64,000 bases of DNA from a virus, in the IMG/VR virus record IMGVR_UViG_3300021356_000010, positions 1 to 64,000 of that record; one strand, written 5' to 3'. The notes under the pieces are model-generated. The model was not told the DNA's origin, did not search any database, and saw nothing but the letters and a program-made list of their open reading frames with translations. Below are positions 4,605 through 64,000 of this stretch, piece by piece. Positions within the stretch are counted from its first letter, which is position 1. Each line of letters starts with the position of its first letter. A program made the translations under genes and the position numbers.

Positions 4605-5318
4605 TTAATAACGGTTACTTACATCAAATGCATGTTCGCATCTATTTCCATCTGCCAAAACATAATGGAAAAATGCCTGATGCCAAAAAGTGTCATCACG
4701 ACCACGTAAAATTCTACGCGCCCACAGTTTATATTTAGGTTCGTCTCTACCGTACTTAGAAGTCAATGGTGGTCTCCAGTGTGGTATCTCACAACCTTTG
4801 TATATGATAGCATCTCCAGGTGCTGTAGTGATCCAAGTTTCTCTTAATTCTGGATTCGAACTATCCACAATGAATGGCCATTCATATTCCCACTTTAGAT
4901 TTGTTTTGATCATAAGACTGACAGAAATTTCACACGCATCTCTATCAACATGTTTTTCCAATTCCTGTCCTAAGAAATAGAACCTATCGTAGTAGTAAGT
5001 ATTATATAATTTTTTACCTAATACTTGTTCTATTTCTAATCTAATTTTTGTATGTAGATCTTTATATGCTGGCCAATTATATCTGCTAGAAGAACCATCT
5101 ACCTGACCCTCATCATCTACGTGAGAATAATTATCTACACTACCATAATAAGTTCTAGATCCTCTCCATTCTGGAACATCACATTCCAGTTTAGTGGGAT
5201 CTGGAACTAAGTTAGGAAGAAAAAAGAAACCATTAGTATCAAATTTTTCATTCCTGGTTCTTAAAGTAGAACCTTTTGTTGGTATCAATTGACTATCTAA
5301 AGCTATCATTTCCATCAT
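4605..5318 (-). CDS. Putative 2OG-Fe(II) oxygenase, HVD type
   Basis: Start ATG 5318 is chosen because it forms an ATGA overlap with the previous stop and has GAGGTGG a few bases upstream; a longer frame from 5342 has no better signal. The 237-aa protein has QELEKHVDRDACEISVSLMI, giving a candidate H-x-D iron pair on a strand, and about 50 residues later PGDAIIYKGCEIPHWRPP, giving the distal His in the position usual for double-stranded beta-helix oxygenases. The distal Arg that binds 2-oxoglutarate is less clear here. It is the last of four adjacent oxygenase-like genes. Substrate unknown. Confidence 0.65.
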   Translation of the reverse strand: MMEMIALDSQLIPTKGSTLRTRNEKFDTNGFFFLPNLVPDPTKLECDVPEWRGSRTYYGSVDNYSHVDDEGQVDGSSSRYNWPAYKDLHTKIRLEIEQVLGKKLYNTYYYDRFYFLGQELEKHVDRDACEISVSLMIKTNLKWEYEWPFIVDSSNPELRETWITTAPGDAIIYKGCEIPHWRPPLTSKYGRDEPKYKLWARRILRGRDDTFWHQAFFHYVLADGNRCEHAFDVSNRY

Positions 5319-5944
5319 TTCCACCTCGGACCAACTACCCAACCAACAATAGATCTTCTAACACCAGAAGTAACTTTCAATACTCTATGTTGAGTTCTAG
5401 AATCAAATATAATTACAGTTCCTCTAGTTCTAGGAGCAAAATATGTTTTACCATTCTCATCTAGTAACTGAAGATTACCTCCTTCATAATCTGATGGATC
5501 TGATAATTGCATAACGATTGATAGTTTCCTGACATTTTCATACTCTGTATTAATCTTGTCAGAAATATACTGTTCTCCTGTAGTATCTTCTGTTTCGGGT
5601 TTGTACATATTGAGGAGACCATGATCAGTATGCCATTTATAAAATTGTCCCTCGGTATATTGAGTATATTGAATACTATTCATATCAATACAATCAATAT
5701 CGTACAGAAAATTTGATCGGTTAGCTAGCGAGACATAATGCCACAAAAATCCAGGTAACCAATGACCACTAGGAATCCAAGCATTACTAGAGTTCCTTGT
5801 TTTATTATCTACCTCCCCTTTATATAAACTAGAAACCTCCATGGAATCTCCAAACTCACTGAAGAGTTCTTCGTCTATAGTTTTTACTAATTTTTCAGGT
5901 AGTCCTGTAGAATACCAAACACTTTGGAATGCCATATCAAACAT
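5315..5944 (-). CDS. Putative prolyl-4-hydroxylase-type 2OG-Fe(II) oxygenase
   Basis: The 209-aa product shows the full signature: EGQFYKWHTDHG (H-x-D), the strand DPSDYEGGNLQLL, RGTVIIFDSRTQHRVLKV (distal His) and GVRRSIVGWVVGP (Arg for 2-oxoglutarate). These are P4H/PKHD-like features, so it should hydroxylate a protein or small molecule using O2, Fe(II) and 2-oxoglutarate. It is clearly paralogous to the gene at 60646-61266, sharing the ends GWVVGPRW. It overlaps the preceding gene by 8 nt; ATG 5935 is an alternative start one base after the previous stop. Substrate is not known. Confidence 0.82.
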   Translation of the reverse strand: MFDMAFQSVWYSTGLPEKLVKTIDEELFSEFGDSMEVSSLYKGEVDNKTRNSSNAWIPSGHWLPGFLWHYVSLANRSNFLYDIDCIDMNSIQYTQYTEGQFYKWHTDHGLLNMYKPETEDTTGEQYISDKINTEYENVRKLSIVMQLSDPSDYEGGNLQLLDENGKTYFAPRTRGTVIIFDSRTQHRVLKVTSGVRRSIVGWVVGPRWK

Positions 5945-6482
5945 TAATAGGATGTAAATTGAATGAAAGAATCAATCTTTCTTTATCACTTGTACATGGT
6001 GATGTGTAGTGATGAATAACTGACGGGAAGAAAATCATAGATCCACTTTTTATTTCTGATGGAGTATGCACTAATTGACATCCAACAAAAAAGTTATTGA
6101 AAGGTGACAGAAATCTTGTTGGAGTATGTTCATCTTCATCATAGTCTATGTACAAGACACAACTATATCCAACAGCACCATGATTGTGGATTTCATGGTG
6201 CATACCTTTTTTAGCTAACTCAAACCAATGTCCATTTGGAGCATAAGACATATTTGTTGCTTGAGAAAACAATCCTAATTCTTCTTTTAGGATATCTACA
6301 ATGTCTTCCCAATAAGATTCTTTACCTTCTCTAAAGTAATCAGTTAATACAGTATAAGATAAATCTTTATTTACCGATACTCTGTTGTAAAGATCTTTGA
6401 GTTTTTTCTTCTTGACTTCCCAGTCCCTAACTTCGTAATGGAATACAGGAACGGAGAAAATGGATTCTTGATAATCACTCAT
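5937..6482 (-). CDS. Putative 2OG-Fe(II) oxygenase, HxH subtype
   Basis: The 181-aa protein carries GMHHEIHNHGAVGYSCVLYI, where H-N-H stands at the usual H-x-D position, followed by SGSMIFFPSVIHHYTSP (distal His) and KERLILSFN (Arg). This arrangement matches the putative 2OG-Fe(II) oxygenase family PF13759, which is common in marine phages. It overlaps its neighbours by 4 nt and 8 nt, so it is translated as part of a tight oxygenase operon. The best guess is a hydroxylase of unknown target. Confidence 0.75.
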   Translation of the reverse strand: MSDYQESIFSVPVFHYEVRDWEVKKKKLKDLYNRVSVNKDLSYTVLTDYFREGKESYWEDIVDILKEELGLFSQATNMSYAPNGHWFELAKKGMHHEIHNHGAVGYSCVLYIDYDEDEHTPTRFLSPFNNFFVGCQLVHTPSEIKSGSMIFFPSVIHHYTSPCTSDKERLILSFNLHPINV

Positions 6483-7030
6483 GACAAACTAATATCAGAA
6501 TTAAATGATATAATTGTTTTTCTTTTATTTGATTCTACTTTTGGAGCAGAATGTACAATAAAAGAAGGGAAGGTTATAATGTCTCCCTCTTCAGTATCAA
6601 CATCAAATGTATCTGTATTATTTAGAGGACTGACAAAAACCGTTCTAGGACTTCCTTTTGGAAATTCTAGATAATAAACAGATGACCATTGACATTGTGT
6701 ATGTGTATGCCATTCATGAAAAGAATTTTTTTCATATTGCTGGAACCACATATTGATAATATTAACAGTTGGAAATCCTAGACTATTGAACAACTTAAAG
6801 TGATTCTCTTCGATATGAGGAAAAATAATATCTAGATATTTTCTTTCTGCTTCTTTGGGTAAGTTCCAATCACATTTACTGATCATGGTTTTTGTATATC
6901 CATGATCGTCTATACCAACATAAGAACTACACCCTGAAGAATCAATGAGACTTAAAATCTCATTCTTCAGGGTGTTGTGTTCTTTTAGTTTTGTTTTGTA
7001 TATTGGACAAGGAAGATCAAATACAAACAT
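6479..7030 (-). CDS. Putative 2OG-Fe(II) oxygenase, HxH subtype
   Basis: The 183-aa product includes KNSFHEWHTHTQCQWSSVYY (H-T-H at the metal site), EEGDIITFPSFIVHSAP (distal His) and KRKTIISFN (basic residue before the final strand). The layout is that of PF13759-type oxygenases and resembles its downstream neighbour, suggesting an old duplication. It is the first gene of the four-gene oxygenase block and follows the glycine-rich adhesin-like gene after 25 nt. Target unknown. Confidence 0.75.
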   Translation of the reverse strand: MFVFDLPCPIYKTKLKEHNTLKNEILSLIDSSGCSSYVGIDDHGYTKTMISKCDWNLPKEAERKYLDIIFPHIEENHFKLFNSLGFPTVNIINMWFQQYEKNSFHEWHTHTQCQWSSVYYLEFPKGSPRTVFVSPLNNTDTFDVDTEEGDIITFPSFIVHSAPKVESNKRKTIISFNSDISLS

Positions 7031-7055: not shown

Positions 7056-8027
7056 TCATGGATTCCAGGTAATAACAACTCGTCCTGCTTTTCCTGTATT
7101 TCCGTAACTACCTCTATCACCATCTCCACTATTTCCTGCGGTTGGACCATTGCCTTGCGACAATGATGGAGAAGAAATGTATGATGGATTGGTGTAACCA
7201 GATCCTCCGCCACCACCAAAGGCACCAGAGTCTCCTCCACCTTCTCCACCGCCGTAGCGACCGCCACCGCCACCACCAGATCCTTTGTCACCACCGTTGG
7301 CAGCGCCATATCCACCTTGATAGACGTTGCTTCCAATACCACTAGTTCCGCCTGGGTTTGCTGGTGGTCCAGTTCTACCCTGACCACCTCTTGTTCCAGA
7401 TCCAGGGTTTCCTCTTCTTCTGGGAGCAGCTCCGCCAGCACCTACGCCGTTTTGTGTTCCGCCACCACCACCTTGTGGTCTTCTAGGCTGACCATTAGTA
7501 CCGCCACCAGCACCACCAGGGCGACCAGCAGCACCGCCGCCACCACCGCCAATAATAACAGCAGTGTTACCCTGTCTGATGCCAGAAGCAGCACCACCAC
7601 CTGCACCATTTCTTCCACCAGATGGAGTTCCTCTACCACCAGCCCACACTCGATAAGTGGTTCCGCCATTCATTGTCATGTTGCCACCAGCAAAACCACC
7701 AGCGCCAGCATTGCCATCGACACCACCACCTGCTCCCCAAACTTTAATATTGACAGGAGTTGGTTGAGAAAAAGAAATGTTCCAAGATGATCCACCAGGA
7801 GAATTAATATTACCTGGGTTTAGATATAATTTTGGAGAAGTACTCAAGTCTCCAGGGGATCCTGGGGACAAACTAAAAGTTGCTGGTTGAGTAGCAGTAT
7901 AAGTTTCTCTCCAAGTTCCAGAGACATTGTTATTAACAGTATCAACTTGTCTCCAAGTTCCAGAAACATTGTTCCAGAGTTCTTGAATCTCTCTCCAAGT
8001 GCCAGAAACGTTATTAAAAATACTCAT
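7056..8027 (-). CDS. Glycine-rich tail fibre / adhesin-like protein
   Basis: The 323-aa product starts with three copies of a short repeat, NNVSGTWRE / NNVSGTWRQ / NNVSGTWRE, within the first 45 residues. From about residue 90 it becomes extremely Gly-rich, with runs such as IIGGGGGGAAGRPGGAGGG and clusters of GxG, and ends with GKAGRVVITWNP. Such Gly-rich domains are known from gp38-type receptor-binding tips of T-even phages, where they form polyglycine helices, and from other phage fibre tips. The position after the fibre genes supports a role in host adsorption. A direct gp38 match cannot be claimed. Long open frames in other phases here are composition shadows. Confidence 0.7.
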   Translation of the reverse strand: MSIFNNVSGTWREIQELWNNVSGTWRQVDTVNNNVSGTWRETYTATQPATFSLSPGSPGDLSTSPKLYLNPGNINSPGGSSWNISFSQPTPVNIKVWGAGGGVDGNAGAGGFAGGNMTMNGGTTYRVWAGGRGTPSGGRNGAGGGAASGIRQGNTAVIIGGGGGGAAGRPGGAGGGTNGQPRRPQGGGGGTQNGVGAGGAAPRRRGNPGSGTRGGQGRTGPPANPGGTSGIGSNVYQGGYGAANGGDKGSGGGGGGRYGGGEGGGDSGAFGGGGGSGYTNPSYISSPSLSQGNGPTAGNSGDGDRGSYGNTGKAGRVVITWNP

Positions 8028-8035
8028 GATTTGTA

Positions 8036-8737
8036 CTAAACGTAATAATTTGATTCTGCTGGTTTAGATGGCCAGATAGCATCATCTTCTACTCTTGTGG
8101 TAGGACCATCAATTGTAGTAATGTCGGTAATTGTTGATGGGAAATCTCTCAAAGCTTGACGATAAGTTTTTACTTCTTCTGAGATTGTTCTCCCGTCCTC
8201 AAGACCCTTAAGAAGAATAACATCAGATTCTTGCAATCTTCTGTTTCTATGTTCTCTTACAGCAGACCAAGTTGATTCTTTCTTGATTGCTAATTCTTCT
8301 GGGGTTAGATCTACAACAGTGTAGGTCTTTGTCATAACCATATTGACTCTATCAACTGTCCATTCAGAAATATCATTCTCTTCGCAAGTTTTATCAAATG
8401 CTAAAACTGATGGATATGATGCTTCTCTTATTTGAAACACATCATACTTTACTGTTACAGTAGTAGAAGTACCAATCCATTGCGAAAGATCTGTTCTTTC
8501 AATAATATGATTGGCATCATCAACTTCACTAGGATAGTTGTCAATTAATCTACGATAACCTTCATTCTTCAGAAGATAATCATCATCTACTAAAGCTTGA
8601 TTCTCGTATGTCCAACCAGGGTGTCTCTTTTCTTCACCGTCTGGTGTTAGATAGGATTTTGTGCGCTGAGCTTCGTTATATTCTTCTGTTGGAGATGGAA
8701 GAACTTCAGGCATCCAGTAAGTCTTTTCTTCTGACAT
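8036..8737 (-). CDS. Tail fibre / tail assembly chaperone-like protein
   Basis: The 233-aa protein ends with a domain that reads AVREHRNRRLQESDVILLKG ... EEVKTYRQALRDFPSTI, the signature of the phage tail assembly chaperone family (PF16778): R-x-x-R-L-x-x-S-D and Y-R-Q-x-L-R-D-x-P. The N-terminal two thirds are acidic and specific to this phage. Such proteins often follow fibre genes and help their folding or attachment. It is 8 nt upstream of the Gly-rich protein and 10 nt downstream of a short fibre gene. Confidence 0.75.
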   Translation of the reverse strand: MSEEKTYWMPEVLPSPTEEYNEAQRTKSYLTPDGEEKRHPGWTYENQALVDDDYLLKNEGYRRLIDNYPSEVDDANHIIERTDLSQWIGTSTTVTVKYDVFQIREASYPSVLAFDKTCEENDISEWTVDRVNMVMTKTYTVVDLTPEELAIKKESTWSAVREHRNRRLQESDVILLKGLEDGRTISEEVKTYRQALRDFPSTITDITTIDGPTTRVEDDAIWPSKPAESNYYV

Positions 8738-8747
8738 GTTCCTTTAA

Positions 8748-9164
8748 TTAGTATTTGTACCAAATATCACCGTTGCTTCCACCAGATGGGTTACCAGTAG
8801 AAACTGTTTTAGCACCCCATCCATTGGAATAGGCACCTGAAGTCGGATTGACTGCAATGTTTGAAGAACCATTAAAAGATACACCGTTAATGTTTCTAGC
8901 AGTGGAAAGTGTAGCAGCACTACCAACACTTAGACTACTAATGTTAGTCCATGAAGGAGTGCTTCCACCAACCAAAACCTGTGAGCTACCACCAACACTC
9001 AGTTTTGCAGTAGTATCCGCAGCGGATTGGTATAGTAACTGTCCAGCAGATCCACCTGTAATATTATTTGCTGAACTAATTCCGCCTCCAACGAAAGCTC
9101 CGTTGGAAACATATGTTACTCCTGCAGTTGTCTGCAAAGTATCACACTTTAGAATACTTGCCAT
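8748..9164 (-). CDS. Short tail fibre-like protein
   Basis: The 138-aa product has Gly/Ser-rich beta repeats and the segment LSTARNINGVSFNGSSNIAV, which fits the phage tail fibre repeat PF03406 (A-R-x-I-x-G-x-x-F-x-G-S-x-x-I). It ends with SNGDIWYKY, a common last strand of phage fibre proteins. It is preceded by two late-promoter-like motifs between 9187 and 9203. It may be an accessory tip of the fibre encoded upstream, or a split-off C-terminal part of such a fibre. Confidence 0.75.
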   Translation of the reverse strand: MASILKCDTLQTTAGVTYVSNGAFVGGGISSANNITGGSAGQLLYQSAADTTAKLSVGGSSQVLVGGSTPSWTNISSLSVGSAATLSTARNINGVSFNGSSNIAVNPTSGAYSNGWGAKTVSTGNPSGGSNGDIWYKY

Positions 9165-9186: not shown

Positions 9187-9203
9187 TATTTATATTTATT
9201 TAG
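9187..9203 (-). promoter_or_regulatory. Tandem late promoter motifs CTAAATA and TATAAATA
   Basis: On the minus strand CTAAATA (9197-9203) is followed by TATAAATA (9187-9194), 23 nt before ATG 9164. The TAA stop of the 2929-aa fibre gene is the TAA within the first motif. Confidence 0.65.
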
Positions 9204-32965: not shown

Positions 32966-32990
32966 TATTTATATTTATGCAGTTATTTAG
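32966..32990 (-). promoter_or_regulatory. Tandem late promoter motifs before gp8
   Basis: On the minus strand CTAAATA (32984-32990) contains the TAA stop of the gp7-like gene and is followed by TATAAATA (32966-32973), which lies 35 nt before the gp8 start. The second motif equals the T4 late consensus. Confidence 0.7.
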
Positions 32991-51966: not shown

Positions 51967-52147
51967 GTTCTTTCTTCACTGTCTGATAGTATAGTTTATA
52001 GTATTTGTTCTTCATCTCTGTTAGTATAGCATTATCTTCATCAAATGCCATGTATTTTGTTAATTGGTATGATCCTTCTAGTTCTGATAGTAAGCGTAGT
52101 ATGTTAGTTGATGATGGTTTTAGTCCGCCATGTGAGTATTGTGACAT
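51944..52147 (-). CDS. Small hypothetical protein, 67 aa
   Basis: The product begins MSQYSHGGLKPSSTNILRLL, with a basic Tyr/Lys-rich C-terminal half (KNKYYKLYYQTVKKERDQPT). It overlaps the oxygenase gene by 28 nt and the zinc-ribbon gene by 23 nt. Not recognised. Confidence 0.6.
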   Translation of the reverse strand: MSQYSHGGLKPSSTNILRLLSELEGSYQLTKYMAFDEDNAILTEMKNKYYKLYYQTVKKERDQPTHK

Positions 52148-52740
52148 GATATGGATAGTCTATTGGTTGAATCACCGAACTCACCATGAAGGAAAATATT
52201 AAAGGAGATAGCGTATCTTACTTGATCTGATTGTGATTGTGGTGCTGAGTGTTCAATATGTGATGGGAATAGTAATAGTGTTCCTTCTTCTAGTTGAATA
52301 TCTAATGTTTTAGAGTTGTAAATGTTTGATTGATTAGTTGTTGGTATTACTGTTCCTGGTACAAATGATGGTATGAATGGTGATTGATGTAATGAGAGTA
52401 TGTTACCTGATTGTGGGGGGACTTGGATGTAATATATGCCAGTGAAGATAGAGTTAGCATGTGAGTGTTGTGGTAGATAGTCTCCCTTAGTGTGTTTATT
52501 ACACCAACTATTGATGATTTGGAACGATTGTTGTATTTGTAGTTCGTTGTGAATGTAATGGGAGATGTGTGGATCTAACTTATCTTCTAGTGTAGGAGTG
52601 ATTAGTTGTTGATTAGTAGAGATATAACCATTATTCCCTTCAGACCTATTGTATTGTGTATTGGTGACTAGATCTATCTCGTGTTGATCTACTGGTAAGT
52701 TAGTTTGATATAGGGGAGAAGAGAATAGTGGTATGATCAT
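52120..52740 (-). CDS. Putative 2OG-Fe(II) oxygenase, HxH subtype
   Basis: The 206-aa protein reads GDYLPQHSHANSIFTGIYYI (H-S-H at the metal site and a strand), QLEEGTLLLFPSHIEHSAPQ (distal His) and DQVRYAISFNIF (Arg). This is the PF13759 pattern and close in layout to the genes at 5937 and 6479. The N-terminus MIIPLFSSPLYQTNLPV is also typical of that family (short strand with P-L/V-F-x-T). It overlaps the membrane mini-gene upstream by an ATGA junction. Confidence 0.78.
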   Translation of the reverse strand: MIIPLFSSPLYQTNLPVDQHEIDLVTNTQYNRSEGNNGYISTNQQLITPTLEDKLDPHISHYIHNELQIQQSFQIINSWCNKHTKGDYLPQHSHANSIFTGIYYIQVPPQSGNILSLHQSPFIPSFVPGTVIPTTNQSNIYNSKTLDIQLEEGTLLLFPSHIEHSAPQSQSDQVRYAISFNIFLHGEFGDSTNRLSISCHNTHMAD

Positions 52741-57186: not shown

Positions 57187-57969
57187 TCAGGGGAAGAATG
57201 GGTGCAGAGTGGGCGCTTTGACAGGTGGCACAGCAGCGCGGATCCTGTCCGCAGCGATCTGATAATACTCCGCATCGGACTCCATGCCAATGAAATGACG
57301 ACCCAGTGCCACCGCAGCAACACCAGTAGAACCAGATCCCATACAGTTGTCCAGCACAGTGTCACCCTCATTAGAGTATGTTTTGATCAACCACTCCATC
57401 AGTGGCACAGGTTTCTGCGTGGGATGCACCTGTTGTTGAGCACTAAAGTCGCGTGAGATGTTGAGAATAGACTTAGGATACCGTGTTCCCTTGTTCTCAA
57501 ACTCTTTACGTGGTTTCATACCATATCCATGGTCATTCTTACGTCCCACATATCCTTCAGGGTTCTTACTCTTGCGAGCATATGGTTCTCCTACCTCCAT
57601 CTGTGGATTATATACTCCGCCTGGTTTCTTAGAGAACAACAATACATTCTCATGTGTCTTCATTGGTCTATACTTTGCAAGACCAGGAGATCCACACTTA
57701 TTCTTGTTCCACACCAATTCATATTTGAACCACTTGATCTTAGAACAGATCAACTGTGCAGAGAATGGTTGTGATCCAAACAGACACATCATGCCCTTGG
57801 GTTTAATGATGCGACCATATTGTTCCCACACGGCATCAAAATCCAATACTTCATCCCATTTGATGCTGGTGGTGCCGTATGGTGGGTCACAGCAAATAAA
57901 ATCGACTGATTCGTCTGGAATCTCACGCATGAGTTCCAGGCAGTCACCTAGTTGTAGATCAAAGGGCAT
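57187..57969 (-). CDS. Beta-class DNA methyltransferase (N6-adenine or N4-cytosine)
   Basis: From ATG 57969 the 260-aa protein begins MPFDLQLGDCLELMREIPDE and has the catalytic motif IV DPPY at residues 28-31. The SAM-binding motif I follows only near the C-terminus (VLDNCMGSGSTGVAA), preceded by HPTQKPVPLMEWLI. The order IV then I is that of beta-class amino-methyltransferases (PF01555). The modified base and recognition site cannot be read. It overlaps the 200-aa nuclease-like gene by 11 nt, so both are likely made together as a restriction-modification-like pair or for self-protection. ATG 57981 and GTG 57987 are alternative starts. Confidence 0.9.
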   Translation of the reverse strand: MPFDLQLGDCLELMREIPDESVDFICCDPPYGTTSIKWDEVLDFDAVWEQYGRIIKPKGMMCLFGSQPFSAQLICSKIKWFKYELVWNKNKCGSPGLAKYRPMKTHENVLLFSKKPGGVYNPQMEVGEPYARKSKNPEGYVGRKNDHGYGMKPRKEFENKGTRYPKSILNISRDFSAQQQVHPTQKPVPLMEWLIKTYSNEGDTVLDNCMGSGSTGVAAVALGRHFIGMESDAEYYQIAADRIRAAVPPVKAPTLHPFFP

Positions 57970-58561
57970 CGAAACCGTCATGAGCACTAATCTTTTTACG
58001 AACAGAATCTTTGTAGCATCCTACCAGAAAATCATACGCTTCGCTGTAGGTGCGTTGTACAGGGTTGGTGTTGTCCTTCCACTTGATCTGGAAGGGCAAG
58101 TTGTTACCATTGGCAGTGAGTTTGCTGAGAGACTTGAGTGAGGTGAGATGAACCTCATTGTTTGTCTTGTTCAGGGAGAGGATATAATAGTCACGATGAT
58201 TCTCCTTCCTGCCGTAGATAGACAGGGCATCTTGAAACTTCTTCCATGATGACACATTCAACTTGTCCTCAGGCAGATCAGTCAGAGCATACAGAATTGC
58301 TGCTTTAGAAGAGAAGTTGTCAGCAGCACTGCCATACTTGGATGACTTGATGTTGAAATAGTATCCAAAGATCTTAACATCCCACCAGCAACGCGGAGGT
58401 GGTTTGATAATGTTCTCCTCACCATACTTCTCAATCAACAGATCAATGATAGTATCCTCATCATCAATACTATTCACACGACCGTCTTCATGACTCTCAC
58501 TGACAGCGATAGCAATGCTGTTGAGATACTGAAGGACTTCAAGCAGTTTGGCAGGGAACAT
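57959..58561 (-). CDS. Nuclease-like partner of the methyltransferase, 200 aa
   Basis: ATG 58561 gives a 200-aa product. Its centre reads PPPRCWWDVKIFGYYFNIKS followed by SKYGSAADNFSSKAAIL. D61 and N70-x-K72 fall in the spacing of a PD-(D/E)xK core, with Asn in place of the acidic residue. The layout (helix, D-strand-strand-xK, then SSK helix, and a LPFQIKW end) resembles type II restriction endonucleases as I know them, but no named family can be given. Gene order, with an 11-nt overlap into the methyltransferase, supports an R-M-like role. It has its own promoter at 58584-58612. Alternatively an orphan protein of unknown role. Confidence 0.6.
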   Translation of the reverse strand: MFPAKLLEVLQYLNSIAIAVSESHEDGRVNSIDDEDTIIDLLIEKYGEENIIKPPPRCWWDVKIFGYYFNIKSSKYGSAADNFSSKAAILYALTDLPEDKLNVSSWKKFQDALSIYGRKENHRDYYILSLNKTNNEVHLTSLKSLSKLTANGNNLPFQIKWKDNTNPVQRTYSEAYDFLVGCYKDSVRKKISAHDGFDAL

Positions 58562-58583
58562 GGTGCGTTGCTTTGATACAGAT

Positions 58584-58612
58584 AGTATGGCATAAAAAAG
58601 GGGCACCGTCAA
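58584..58612 (-). promoter_or_regulatory. Sigma70-like promoter TTGACG-17-CATACT, -35 in terminator loop
   Basis: TTGACG (58607-58612) is exactly the 6-nt loop of the terminator hairpin at 58600-58619. CATACT (58584-58589) follows after 17 nt. It reads into the nuclease-like/methyltransferase pair. Confidence 0.7.
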
Positions 58613-58619
58613 GTGCCCC
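58594..58619 (-). terminator. Rho-independent terminator after the 52-aa gene
   Basis: On the minus strand GGGGCAC and GTGCCCC form a perfect 7-bp stem with loop TTGACG, followed by six T residues. It ends the transcript of the 59.6-58.6 kb gene group. Confidence 0.88.
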
Positions 58620-58629
58620 AACCAGTTGC

Positions 58630-59868: not shown

Positions 59869-60141
59869 TTATACACCAGATGGACCCCATCCGTCGTTCT
59901 CAGGGACAGTATCATCATCGTCCAATCGATCAACGGATGCAATGTCACACACTGGCACCTCATGCTCACCACCAATGATATACCAGTGCATCATTTGTCC
60001 ATGGTATTCTGGATGTGCCTGAAAATCTTCGGGATAGACACGCTCACCGCAATACATAATCTCACTTTCTGGAATATTGTGTTCGCGTAACATTGCTTGC
60101 AGCTGCATGTGCATCAACTCGGGTTGCGTAGGAACTTTCAT
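59869..60141 (-). CDS. Small acidic protein, 90 aa
   Basis: ATG 60141 gives MKVPTQPELMHMQLQAMLRE then HNIPESEIMYCGERVYPEDF, a His/Met/Glu-rich protein that ends in an acidic stretch (DRLDDDDTVPENDGWGPSGV). Starts at 60156, 60111, 60105 or 60090 are also possible; the last reduces the overlap with the DUF4385 gene from 80 to 29 nt. Unknown function. Confidence 0.6.
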   Translation of the reverse strand: MKVPTQPELMHMQLQAMLREHNIPESEIMYCGERVYPEDFQAHPEYHGQMMHWYIIGGEHEVPVCDIASVDRLDDDDTVPENDGWGPSGV

Positions 60142-60598
60142 TAGATCTCCATTCACGTCTCATTTCTTGGTAGGTTTTATCATAGGCAGCCAAGTCTCTA
60201 ACCTCTTTAAATACGGCAGCAGCCTTGGACTTTTCATTGGTTCGCCAATCTTTCTCTTGGGGTCTGACTTCACCAGAAACTTTATCGTACTTCCTTCCAC
60301 TGGCATGATTAGCATACCTACGGGCTCTCGTAAAACCCATCTCCAGGAATTTCCTCGCCATGTCCATACCAATGAAGTCTCCTTTGGTTTTAAATCCAAG
60401 GAACATTTGGTATATCTTAGCAGAAGAGTCGCGAGCAGTAGCTTCATCTACAAAGCGCCAATGAGCGCAAATGTCGTTAGTGTAAGGGCGTACCAGTAGC
60501 ACTCCTTGCTCTCCCCTTCCAATACGATAAAGTTTGCGAGTCTCTGCGTCTGTGAAGTCAAGGTCCTCATAATTGAGTTCATAACAAAATTCGAGCAT
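60062..60598 (-). CDS. DUF4385 family protein, 178 aa
   Basis: The product begins MLEFCYELNYEDLDFTDAET and continues KLYRIGRGEQGVLLVRPYTN, ICAHWRFVDEATARDSSAKI and MARKFLEMGFTRARRYANHA. These match DUF4385 (PF14328), found in bacteria and cyanophages, with unknown function. The last 60 residues (EKSKAAAVFKEVRDLAAYDK ...) are extra compared with the core. It is the first gene after a sigma70-like promoter that is overlapped by an inverted repeat. Confidence 0.88.
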   Translation of the reverse strand: MLEFCYELNYEDLDFTDAETRKLYRIGRGEQGVLLVRPYTNDICAHWRFVDEATARDSSAKIYQMFLGFKTKGDFIGMDMARKFLEMGFTRARRYANHASGRKYDKVSGEVRPQEKDWRTNEKSKAAAVFKEVRDLAAYDKTYQEMRREWRSNESSYATRVDAHAAASNVTRTQYSRK

Positions 60599-60643: not shown

Positions 60644-60649
60644 TGTCAA
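60621..60649 (-). promoter_or_regulatory. Sigma70-like promoter TTGACA-17-TATGGT
   Basis: TTGACA (60644-60649) and TATGGT (60621-60626) are 17 nt apart, upstream of ATG 60598 (DUF4385 gene). The -35 box contains the TGA stop of the oxygenase gene at 60646 (GCT TGA CA), as at 55179-55184. Confidence 0.7.
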
Positions 60650-61266
60650 GCCCATCTAGGACCAACGACCCATCCAACCAGTGACCTTCTACATCCAGAC
60701 TTGACTTTTCTCACTCTGTGCATTGTTCTAGCATCAAAGACAATCATTCTACCTCTTGCCTTTGGAGCAGTCATTAATTTACCAGCATCCAAAAACTGTA
60801 ACTCGCCACCATCATAATCATTAGGACCAGACAGTTGCAATGAGAATGCTAACTTTCTCACATACTCATGCTCTACAAACGATTCATTAGATGATTGGTT
60901 GTACTTAGAACTAGGAACAAAGTTTGGAGTAAATTCTGTATAGAGGTGCTGATCTGGATGCCAGTGATAGAACTGACCCTTATTGTACTCAGTATATTGA
61001 ATCATCTCAGTATCAAAAGACGTTATGTTGAATCTAAAGTTACGTCTATTTGCTGCTTGAATCCAATACCAGATCATTGGTCCAACCCAAACATCAGTTG
61101 GAATATAAGAAACCAATGAATCTCTTTGAGTATTAAGATGCCCTACCTCTCCATCTGGTTTGAATACAGTGCCGTCTTTGACAGGATAATCATGTGCTAA
61201 TTTTATAATCTCACTAACTACCACATCAGGTAGTTTTGTATCAAATTCAACTGCAAAGTCTGCCAT
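60646..61266 (-). CDS. Putative prolyl-4-hydroxylase-type 2OG-Fe(II) oxygenase
   Basis: The 206-aa product carries KGQFYHWHPDQHLY (H-x-D), GPNDYDGGELQFLD, RGRMIVFDARTMHRVRKV (distal His) and GCRRSLVGWVVGPRW (Arg). It is a paralogue of the gene at 5315-5944, with the same end GWVVGPRW and the same D-Y-x-G-G-x-L-Q-x-L-D strand. It overlaps the 266-aa gene by one base. Substrate unknown; hydroxylation of a virion or host protein is a reasonable guess. Confidence 0.85.
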   Translation of the reverse strand: MADFAVEFDTKLPDVVVSEIIKLAHDYPVKDGTVFKPDGEVGHLNTQRDSLVSYIPTDVWVGPMIWYWIQAANRRNFRFNITSFDTEMIQYTEYNKGQFYHWHPDQHLYTEFTPNFVPSSKYNQSSNESFVEHEYVRKLAFSLQLSGPNDYDGGELQFLDAGKLMTAPKARGRMIVFDARTMHRVRKVKSGCRRSLVGWVVGPRWA

Positions 61267-62066
61267 TAAATCTCCTCAAAATCATATACACACATTGAAT
61301 CAAATTCAACTCTTTCGATTGCTTTATCAACCCACAGATATTTCAACGTGCCATGTTGCATTCTGGGGCAATTATCAATAATGAAATCATGGGTCTCTTG
61401 AGTGATGATCTCGTCAGTCAATAATGCATTATAGAATGCTCTCTTTTTACTGAGATAATGTCTCTCATCTCTTCCCATTGCAACATCAGCGGTGTCTATT
61501 CTATATGGTGTGTTGTCATGAATGTGAATTGAAAATCTATTGTCATCTGTTAGATCAAACCACCACTTTGAATGGAAGAATCCAAAGTGTTTAATGACAG
61601 ATTTTCTAATTTTTTCAAAGTTTTCATAATCTGCAAATTCTTCCATGTGTTCAATTTCTTTCGTTCCCATACCCATACCCAAATACTTTGGAGTACCATC
61701 AGGAAGAAAATACACATTATTGCCTGCCATTCTAATACCTTTGTCACGCAATGATGCTAGTGCTACTGGTTCTGTGCTCATGTTAAGAATTTCTCTCACC
61801 CTAGAGTCATATTGAAATGCAGCAAAAGAAAGTTCATAACCATATACTTCTTCTAAGTTTGGAGTATAAAACTTCTTCACACCATCAATTTGTTTTCTGG
61901 CAATATGAACAATTGATTCCAATTGTTTCATTGTTTCCAAACAAGCGTCTGGAACAGATTCATTCGTCATAGAAATGTATCTGTAGGGTGTCATCTTAGC
62001 GTAAGAGATCTTCTCTTGTGTATCCAAATTGAAGATATTAAACCCTCTATGATAATCTTTCTGCAT
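61266..62066 (-). CDS. Unrecognised protein in oxygenase operon, 266 aa
   Basis: The product begins QKDYHRGFNIFNLDTQEKIS and includes SKWWFDLTDDNRFSIHIHDN and DTADVAMGRDERHYLSKKRA. It lacks a signal peptide, membrane segment and the usual oxygenase signature, although RFSIHIHDN has closely spaced His residues. It lies between two oxygenase genes with a 1-nt overlap on one side and a 2-nt gap on the other, so it is likely to work with them, perhaps as substrate-binding partner. I do not recognise the family. Confidence 0.7.
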   Translation of the reverse strand: MQKDYHRGFNIFNLDTQEKISYAKMTPYRYISMTNESVPDACLETMKQLESIVHIARKQIDGVKKFYTPNLEEVYGYELSFAAFQYDSRVREILNMSTEPVALASLRDKGIRMAGNNVYFLPDGTPKYLGMGMGTKEIEHMEEFADYENFEKIRKSVIKHFGFFHSKWWFDLTDDNRFSIHIHDNTPYRIDTADVAMGRDERHYLSKKRAFYNALLTDEIITQETHDFIIDNCPRMQHGTLKYLWVDKAIERVEFDSMCVYDFEEI

Positions 62067-62068
62067 TG

Positions 62069-62587
62069 TTATACTAGCTCCAGTTTCCAGGCTACAGTCT
62101 TACGCAATCCGCCAAATGTTCTTGTAGGTTCTTCAGCAAAGTGTTTGATTTGACCAGGGAAATATACTGCTTTATTTATTTCTGGGGTGACCCAAACTGG
62201 TCCATTGTCAAACAAGAAGCATGTCTTACCATTCCATCGAACATCCCATGCACCATTAGCATACCACAATAGAGTTCTTGCTTTTTCATCAAATCCATCT
62301 ACATGTGGTTGCCCACCTAATCCATATGTCTGACCATTAGCATAAACTGATATCACTTTAAAGTCATCACCAGTTGCTTTACGTATTGGTTCAAGTAAAG
62401 TCTCTGTAAAGAGTTTATCTCTTCCAAGTTGCATTATCCAAAATGGTGGAGCATTTATATTACCTGATCCAGAGACATGTCCATATCTCCACTGTGGTCT
62501 TTCCAAGAAAACTTTAATAGATTCGCAATGCTCTTCAGAAAACATATTTCTAAAGATACGAATATCATCTGGACTAAAATTGTGCAT
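62069..62587 (-). CDS. Putative 2OG-Fe(II) oxygenase, HVD type
   Basis: The 172-aa product reads YGLGGQPHVDGFDEKARTLL (H-x-D followed by a strand), DVRWNGKTCFLFDN, AVYFPGQIKHFAEEP (distal His) and GLRKTVAWKLEL (basic residue on the last strand). The fold and spacing fit a prolyl-4-hydroxylase-like oxygenase. The N-terminus has FRNMFSEEHCESIKVFLERP, as in P4H-like proteins. It overlaps the upstream oxygenase gene by 14 nt. Confidence 0.82.
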   Translation of the reverse strand: MHNFSPDDIRIFRNMFSEEHCESIKVFLERPQWRYGHVSGSGNINAPPFWIMQLGRDKLFTETLLEPIRKATGDDFKVISVYANGQTYGLGGQPHVDGFDEKARTLLWYANGAWDVRWNGKTCFLFDNGPVWVTPEINKAVYFPGQIKHFAEEPTRTFGGLRKTVAWKLELV

Positions 62588-63227
62588 ATTCTCGTATCAA
62601 TTGATATCTTGTCCTTTCAAGATCAGCAACAAGCTCCACGTCTCTAAGTTTATCATAGTTTTTGATAATTGTCATTGAATAGTCATTGACAATCTCTCTA
62701 ATTCTACTATCAGAAATCACTGACTCCATCCACAATACCATGACCCTTCTCTCACCAGAAGTAACTTCATTGACTTTGTGATAGACACCAGTTGGATATG
62801 CTACACAAGATCCTGCAGGTAGTTTGTATTCAATTTCTTTGCCACCAACATTCAATACCAACTCTCCTCCCTCATATTCATCTGGATCATTGAGAAAGAG
62901 CGACAGACTATAATCTGTTCTCACTTCATTCATGCAATAAAAATCATTATGATATTTGTAATGCATACCCTCTGTATATCTGAGAAACATAGGGATAGTA
63001 GTAGCTCTAGGAACTAGAACGTAATTCAATTGTTCAGACTTTTTTATCTGACTATCAGCATACTCACACAACCTAGGACCATGAACAGAATCTTGTATCT
63101 GTTCATTCCATTTTATAGACTTGTCATCAGAACCAGTGACAGACCCATCCACAAAGTCACAGATTTTGTAGTATTCATTTATGGTATCAAGTTGGGTTTC
63201 GCTTAAAACTTTAATAGTATAGATCAT
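62574..63227 (-). CDS. Putative PKHD-type 2OG-Fe(II) oxygenase
   Basis: The 217-aa product begins MIYTIKVLSETQLDTINEYY and contains EGMHYKYHNDFYCMNEVRTD (H-N-D), SLSLFLNDPDEYEGGELVLN, LPAGSCVAYPTGVYHKVNEV (distal His) and SGERRVMVLWMESVI (Arg). This is the PiuC/YbiX-type PKHD hydroxylase pattern, with length close to that family. It follows the tail-chaperone-like gene by 16 nt and is the first oxygenase of the right-hand cluster. Confidence 0.88.
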   Translation of the reverse strand: MIYTIKVLSETQLDTINEYYKICDFVDGSVTGSDDKSIKWNEQIQDSVHGPRLCEYADSQIKKSEQLNYVLVPRATTIPMFLRYTEGMHYKYHNDFYCMNEVRTDYSLSLFLNDPDEYEGGELVLNVGGKEIEYKLPAGSCVAYPTGVYHKVNEVTSGERRVMVLWMESVISDSRIREIVNDYSMTIIKNYDKLRDVELVADLERTRYQLIREYAQF

Positions 63228-63243
63228 TATAATGTCAATAAGT

Positions 63244-64000
63244 TTAATCTTCTACGTGCAACAACTCCATTCTTAAATCTGGGAAGAAGTCCCAAGCGTT
63301 GAGAGTTTCCATTAGTTCATAATATTTACGTGTAATCTTCGCAGTATCATCATGTCCTTTATTTACATATTCCAGGACATTCATAATGTTGTTGGTAACA
63401 AAATCAGTAGATGCTTTGAAGTCTAGTTTAGTGAATTGATCTTCTGTACCCATATATTCTACTGGGTTGCCATCTGCATCCTGACCATTTGGATACAGTT
63501 TAAAATAATTATTTGGATCAACAGCAAACTTAACTGTTGTTGCAAACTTAAATGCTTCGTATCTATTTTCAAACGTTTCAATATTTGGCAGGAGATCTCT
63601 CAAATGCTGTCTCCACTTCTTCCACATTTCTAATTCACCATCAAATTCTTCTTGATAGTCTGGAAGCATTCTCCAATCAGAGAAGAGGAGCATAGAACGT
63701 ACTTCAATAGTTCTCTTTACATACTTTGCCTCATAGTAATACTGATAATCAATCAGTTTCTTACTTTCTTCGATAAATTGAGACGTTTTCTCATGCTTTT
63801 GTACTTCAGCTAGAGAATCAAAGAGTTCATATATTCTATTTGCATCATCAGTCGATGCTTCTGGATAGTTGTAACTTCTCCAGTATTGATTTCCCTCTGA
63901 ATCCGTGACAATCTTTTTCTTTTGACAGAGATACTCCCCACCCCAGTAGAAAATGAGATACTCGATCTCATCCTTATCTGGAAGATGCCACTCAGATCCT
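63244..64000 (-). CDS. Tail assembly chaperone-like protein, 5' end outside the window
   Basis: The frame is open from the right edge to the stop at 63244, so at least 251 residues are visible and the start is missing. The visible N-part reads GSEWHLPDKDEIEYLIFYWG. In the middle RSMLLFSDWRMLPDYQEEFD and WKKWRQHLRDLLPN match the phage tail assembly chaperone signature (R-x-x-L-L-x-x-S-D-W, W/Y-R-Q-x-L-R-D-L-P; PF16778). It is then followed by about 110 further residues of mostly helix. It heads the oxygenase operon, so fibre-type genes may lie just outside the window. Confidence 0.65.
   Translation of the reverse strand, partial: GSEWHLPDKDEIEYLIFYWGGEYLCQKKKIVTDSEGNQYWRSYNYPEASTDDANRIYELFDSLAEVQKHEKTSQFIEESKKLIDYQYYYEAKYVKRTIEVRSMLLFSDWRMLPDYQEEFDGELEMWKKWRQHLRDLLPNIETFENRYEAFKFATTVKFAVDPNNYFKLYPNGQDADGNPVEYMGTEDQFTKLDFKASTDFVTNNIMNVLEYVNKGHDDTAKITRKYYELMETLNAWDFFPDLRMELLHVED

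Follow-up and report, generated by a model that had tools for sequence, protein, structure and literature searches.

The window analysed here, a stretch of 64,000 nucleotides, comprises the first 64 kb of the 81,720-base IMG/VR virus record IMGVR_UViG_3300021356_000010 and carries close to its right end a cluster of oxygenase-like genes, hereafter the right cluster. Positions 60646-63227 are filled by four minus-strand open reading frames (ORFs; 60646-61266, 61266-62066, 62069-62587, and 62574-63227) that meet with one shared base, one 2-bp gap, and one 14-bp overlap. The original prediction, made from the sequence without database searches, had read this almost gapless array as three P4H/PKHD-like oxygenases enclosing an unrecognised 266-aa protein; the ORFs lie as described, and profile searches bear out the enzyme assignments.

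The 217-aa protein ox217 (62574..63227, minus strand) is a PiuC/PKHD-type hydroxylase that passes PF13640 (1.3e-13, 52.1 bits against a cut-off of 27) and matches the PDB sequences 3dkq (2.9e-19) and 9ghl (5.3e-18). The similarity to these proteins, Sbal_3634 and PiuC, extends over nearly the whole length and includes the HxD...H...R pattern, whereas ox217 is phage-borne and located in a fibre operon. The last gene of the cluster encodes ox206 (206 aa, 60646..61266, minus strand), a 2-oxoglutarate (2OG)-Fe(II) oxygenase that also passes PF13640 (1.7e-12, 48.6 bits against the same cut-off of 27) and weakly matches PiuC (9ghl, 1.4e-4). The occupant of this slot differs among phages and is of the phrog_81 type in S-PM2. 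Between the two lie the 266-aa partner u266 (61266..62066, minus strand) and the oxygenase-like ox172 (172 aa, 62069..62587, minus strand). The latter matches phrog_274 (3.7e-24); the window copy gave no match in a Pfam scan, and the S-PM2 orthologue passes PF13640 (1.9e-6, 29.1 bits, cut-off 27). Furthermore, an alignment of the ox172 family (16 members) with the ox217 family brings HxD..H into register (hhalign 2.7e-5). The RefSeq label of S-PM2p230 and other phrog_274 proteins, 'DNA endonuclease V', seems wrong for what look like 2OG oxygenases; it was rejected for the ox172 family on the grounds of this alignment and the S-PM2 PF13640 match.

Conservation within the families points the same way. 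H95, D97, H149, R156, and R162 are invariant in the ox172 family (16/16), as are H93, D95, H150, and R160 in the ox217 family (15/15) and the HxD/E...H triad together with a basic residue in the ox208 family (17/17). These positions presumably represent the metal triad and the basic residue that binds 2OG. As the catalytic residues are kept in all three orthologous families (16, 15, and 17 sequences), the enzymes look active.

The operon around the tail assembly chaperone

A chaperone-like gene beside the right cluster had been part of the original prediction as well. It encodes a tail assembly chaperone (TAC) of 298 aa on the minus strand (63244..64000, continuing beyond the window to 64140) and matches phrog_4697 at 2.1e-57, with PF16778 at 21.5 bits staying below the cut-off of 26.6. 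Just beyond the window, a ninth oxygenase (64141-64767) is found directly behind the TAC, followed by a short-tail-fibre protein of 1229 aa with a glycine-rich start (64792-68481).

TAC loci were compared between Sf-CH1b and 15 other isolates that had been picked for having a TAC (n=16). The order fibre, oxygenase, TAC, PiuC-like oxygenase, third oxygenase is kept across Kyanoviridae. Oxygenases flank the TAC in 15 of the 16 isolate loci, the ox172 slot is occupied in 14, and the slot of the partner, here a protein of about 290 aa, in 13 (12 recognised by the phrog_4851 hidden Markov model (HMM), plus Sf-CH1b). Two IMG/VR contigs hold the exact gene set of the right cluster in the same order, and Sf-CH1b shares this operon, its u266 slot being taken by a 287-aa protein.

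The association was quantified in the 15 of 25 isolate records that were analysed whole. PF13640 matches were taken to about 2e-5, those over the cut-off were counted, and Pfam matches within 350 bp were merged into one oxygenase, which resulted in 147 merged Pfam-positive oxygenases. Nine of these genomes have a TAC, and 27 of their 77 oxygenases are located no more than 3 kb from it, compared with a mean of 2.7 upon rotation and with none of 2000 rotations reaching 27, figures that describe synteny since the genomes share ancestry and their counts are not independent. Other ORFs of 150-300 aa are found within this distance in 7 of 453 cases in the same nine genomes. The lack of a neighbourhood association with fibre or chaperone genes in other phages had been named beforehand as a refutation of the pairing; across these isolates, such an association is present.

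The partner protein and the phrog_4851 family

The original prediction had left the 266-aa protein unrecognised, and direct searches with u266 return little: no match was obtained by tblastn against 50,697 phage records, nor was any Pfam family or PDB sequence matched, and its relatives in IMG/VR amount to two proteins with 89-90% identity. The phrog_4851 HMM matches neither u266 nor the Sf-CH1b protein in the same slot, and an hhalign comparison of u266 with the phrog_4851 set gives a weak result confined to the N-terminus (probability 3.9, E 0.011). An HMM was built from u266 and its two relatives and searched against the 1742 ORFs of 15 genomes. After u266 itself, the same-slot proteins of S-CAM4 (E 0.0059) and Sf-CH1b (0.023) rank first and second, and a reciprocal HMM of the Sf-CH1b type brings back u266 next. 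Because rank and position agree, though each E-value is weak, homology of u266 to phrog_4851 is accepted with fair confidence as judged from these profile comparisons. Similarity to the relatives other than the close ones amounts to 9-18%, indicating rapid divergence. Relatives of the protein were thus found in the same slot of related clusters; their absence there would have refuted the original prediction. Members of phrog_4851 itself occur in 12 of 26 records, always in this slot and always together with a TAC, and in none of the seven TAC-less records.

Structure prediction replaces the unrecognised status of the protein by a fold predicted for its family. The u266 model, built with three close sequences, reaches a predicted local distance difference test (pLDDT) score of 36, and a fold search with it yielded no match below 0.001, a result that does not speak for a new fold. 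A good model was obtained for a phrog_4851 member from 24 aligned sequences (pLDDT 84.9, predicted template modelling score 0.85). The best 31 PDB matches of this model in Foldseek are prenyltransferases (best E 2.6e-4), and all 50 matches listed by VIA-align are prenyltransferases of the prenyltransferase (PT) barrel type with Z-scores of 9.8-12.1, including AmbP1 (12.1 over 218 residues), PatF (10.3), LimF (9.9), DciF (9.9), and KgpF (9.8). The model shows the ten-stranded barrel with helices outside that defines this class. A PT-barrel (ABBA prenyltransferase) fold is therefore predicted for the phrog_4851 family, which shares it, at a similar length, with AmbP1, NphB/Orf2, DciF, and the cyanobactin prenyltransferases PatF, LimF, and KgpF. 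Unlike these enzymes, phrog_4851 proteins display neither sequence similarity to the class nor a conserved basic pocket, and no precursor peptide was seen.

Whether the barrel would be catalytic has to be weighed separately. Template modelling scores in Foldseek are mostly 0.4-0.47 (about 0.45), and phrog_4851 members gave no prenyltransferase match in Pfam, NCBIfam, or the PDB sequences. We take a particular set of basic and tyrosine residues to be required for prenyl diphosphate binding. The 15 conserved columns of 19 non-redundant members include no conserved basic pocket set, and K/R71, the sole invariant basic position (19/19), is lost in Sf-CH1b and u266. Since both a sequence match and a conserved basic set are absent, no prenyltransferase activity is claimed. 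The protein may instead be a non-enzymatic fibre chaperone or adhesin cofactor that is unrelated to the oxygenases and travels with the operon, a reading that is compatible with modification of the fibre by its neighbours and that we regard as possible though somewhat doubtful. Few conserved residues and the fast divergence (9-18%) would suit it, as would the absence of phrog_4851 from S-RSM4 and ACG-2014h, both of which retain the oxygenases and the TAC; the fold, on the other hand, matches one enzyme superfamily. Several members of that superfamily act on peptides.

As a side observation, a gene of about 117 aa (phrog_4883) precedes the partner in relatives (for example, stretch L011 8940-9293), and the window cluster is without it.

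The left cluster and glycine-rich candidate fibre tips

A second group of oxygenases, the left cluster, is located on the minus strand near the opposite end of the window. It consists of a 245-aa protein with an HxD...HWR motif (4605..5342; phrog_2954, labelled ferrochelatase), a 209-aa 2OG oxygenase (5315..5944; PF13640), and two PF13759 oxygenases of 181 aa (5937..6482) and 183 aa (6479..7030), the latter three over the Pfam cut-off. Every one of the 10 aligned sequences keeps the HxD...HWR pattern, which points to an oxygenase and away from a ferrochelatase; hhalign found no relation between the 4605-5342 protein and the ox208 family. Further phrog_2954 members were noticed in stretch L011 (12641-13249) and in S-RIM44 (stretch L050, 14729-15322). 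The cluster is placed behind a glycine-rich, gp38-like protein of 323 aa (7056..8027, minus strand), a candidate fibre tip and candidate substrate by composition and position, and a tail fibre assembly protein (8036..8737, minus strand; phrog_4912), and it stops before gp13.

This place between fibre genes and gp13 is filled in a comparable manner in relatives. S-RIM44 contains three tandem glycine-rich proteins, two tryptophan halogenases, and several oxygenases there, and S-RSM4 glycine-rich proteins and oxygenases. Behind the fibre genes, Syn9 carries two glycine-rich proteins, two halogenases, and oxygenases, and S-SM1 one glycine-rich protein and oxygenases; in these two, gp13 falls outside the stretch read, and the slot is assigned from the neighbouring fibre genes. 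In a test over twelve threshold pairs of glycine content and distance, 49 of the 147 oxygenases lie within 8 kb of an ORF with at least 33% glycine in 100 aa, against 22.8 expected (1 of 2000 rotations).

Several peculiarities of this slot were observed in passing. The tandem tryptophan halogenases lie between glycine-rich fibre-tip proteins and oxygenases in S-RIM44 (L050 7634-10745) and Syn9 (stretch L048 3966-7071), where gp41 matches PF04820 at 1.4e-99. The glycine-rich paralogues are likewise in tandem (L050 4842-7131 and L048 1344-3328), and a repeated segment in Syn9 gp39 seemingly slips frame, perhaps representing a recombining store of adhesins. Two proteins labelled 'minor coat protein' (L048 12414-13025 and L050 12102-12866) match DUF6445, at 1.9e-13 (over the cut-off) and 9.9e-4 (under it), and show HxD-like motifs.

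The left operon has a candidate late promoter of two overlapping NATAAATA motifs (9187..9200, minus strand), 30-36 bp before the start of the fibre-like gene at 8748-9164. We assume NATAAATA to be a late promoter motif. It stands 30-62 bp before structural-gene starts at five of eight sites (minus-strand 45708, 32973-32979, 22809, 9194-9200, and 4405) and 34-40 bp ahead of the fibre gene in 6 of 15 loci, a placement that fits late expression.

One further oxygenase-like protein (206 aa, 52120..52740, minus strand) stands by itself; it passes PF13759 (5e-20) and has HSH where HxD is expected, in keeping with the HxH type originally assigned to it. The eight oxygenase candidates counted in the original prediction thus hold up, six of them over the Pfam cut-off, one by profile, and one by motif (4605). 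Eight is an ordinary number among these phages: PF13640 and PF13759 matches are present in 26 of 26 records, merged matches over the Pfam cut-off range from 6 to 19 per genome in the 15 isolates, and the part of the S-SCSM1 report available reports 24 2OG oxygenases (PMC9602691).

Among the remaining neighbours, a DUF4385 protein of 178 aa (60062..60598, minus strand) lies downstream of the right cluster and is 87% identical in Sf-CH1b, and a DNA methyltransferase (57187-57987, PF01555) overlaps an endonuclease (57959-58621, phrog_3978), a pair resembling a restriction-modification system.

Proposed modification of tail fibres and competing explanations

The genes present, the order in which they are kept, the invariance of the catalytic motifs, and the fold predicted for the family lead us to a reading to which we give about an even chance, namely that tail-fibre proteins are hydroxylated by the cassette while they are being assembled and that the barrel protein binds or modifies the chain as well. 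The right cluster would then form the enzyme-coding end of a tail-fibre operon. Fibre protein, produced late, would be bound by the TAC, and several 2OG/Fe(II) oxygenases would add hydroxyl groups to side chains in the fibre or in a glycine-rich adhesin tip, either ahead of assembly or in the course of it. The PT-barrel partner would most likely bind this fibre polypeptide too, either keeping it in place for the oxygenases or attaching a further group itself, and the left cluster would play the same part for a second, gp38-like fibre. Late co-expression, reaction, and barrel role are what we infer, as is the substrate, to which the position of the genes points. A bolder variant, which we hold to be a long shot, is a candidate fibre line resembling that of ribosomally synthesized and post-translationally modified peptides (RiPPs), in which peptide hydroxylases, a cyanobactin-type PT-barrel enzyme attaching prenyl or related groups, and, in relatives, tryptophan halogenases would act on glycine-rich receptor-binding tips.

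Several findings, besides the shared ancestry of the genomes and the missing prenyltransferase signatures described above, weigh against fibre hydroxylation. The majority of oxygenases in these genomes have no TAC or glycine-rich gene nearby, and Sf-FR1 has a TAC and a fibre with no oxygenase directly adjoining. The association with glycine-rich genes is weaker than that with the TAC, varies with the thresholds, and is not universal: at thresholds of at least 25% and 5 kb, 35 oxygenases are found near such ORFs where 27.0 would be expected, a number that 290 of 2000 rotations reach or exceed with 35 or more, the link fails in P-SSM2 (1/19), S-B64 (0/10), and P-SSM4 (1/7), and the S-B64 oxygenase cluster adjoins gp5 and not fibres. 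The original interpretation is supported in part: the repeated pairing of oxygenases with chaperone and fibre genes is upheld by the 15 of 16 loci and the rotation enrichment, and the association with glycine-rich or fibre genes does not extend to all phages. Counts of NATAAATA are not higher than in shuffles, and a late promoter near the TAC was dropped as the motif there doubles as codons of a conserved Asp-Lys-Tyr.

The scattered oxygenases and the genomes without a fibre link, P-SSM2 and S-B64, would be accommodated by auxiliary metabolism, in which oxygenases turn over 2OG or modify small molecules or proteins of the host, thereby steering nitrogen status and energy in the infected cell, and fibre proximity reflects a hot-spot effect. 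Such a role has been proposed for cyanophage oxygenases, as far as the accessible parts of the sources indicate (PMC3037559, PMC9602691). It leaves the fixed order with the TAC unexplained, as well as clusters of distinct, catalytically intact families behind two fibre genes, and we consider it unlikely.

A pathway for a small molecule or for capsule or surface sugars appears less probable still. Here, oxygenases, halogenases, and the prenyltransferase-fold protein would build or decorate a secondary metabolite or a host surface polymer, and PT-barrel and halogenase enzymes do frequently belong to natural-product pathways. A cyanophage cluster of halogenases and 2OG oxygenases is read in this way in the available portion of PMC7824862. 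No backbone-making synthase was found in the loci examined, however, the genes sit among fibre, chaperone, and neck genes, and the PiuC/PKHD relatives carry hydroxylase annotation. That ox172 and its relatives serve DNA repair or modification as DNA endonuclease V or AlkB-like enzymes, as the RefSeq label and the AlkB-like role proposed for Syn9 in what could be consulted of PMC2984593 would have it, is very improbable given the in-register alignment with PiuC-like hydroxylases and the S-PM2 member that passes PF13640.

Cyanophage repertoires of the 2OG oxygenase superfamily, likewise large (S-SCSM1, the Sullivan set), are assigned to the control of 2OG and nitrogen, to DNA repair, or to the reprogramming of the host in the sections of the literature at hand (PMC3037559, PMC2984593, PMC9602691), and in the text accessible to our search no description of an oxygenase-fibre link in cyanophages was found. 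A glycine-rich cyanophage fibre tip and its chaperone have been described, the Pam3 gp24 domain with 39% glycine resembling S16 gp38 (PMC9608196); the available part of that paper does not describe chemical modification of either protein. Many relatives hold fibre-tip proteins with 35-54% glycine in a 100-aa span; the window's own 7056-8027 protein has no sequence match to solved structures in the PDB.

The noteworthy part is thus the conserved linkage to fibres together with the PT-barrel family and not the number of oxygenases. The long unnamed phrog_4851 family gains a testable fold. The findings suggest that marine cyanophages may chemically decorate the fibres with which they grip their hosts, and a RiPP-like line, if true, would allow host recognition to be varied chemically and not by sequence alone. 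Abundant marine phages carry few accessory genes in greater numbers than those for 2OG oxygenases; if many of these enzymes act on tail fibres, this large gene class would need a fresh reading, and receptor-binding proteins would carry chemistry that is invisible in their sequence.

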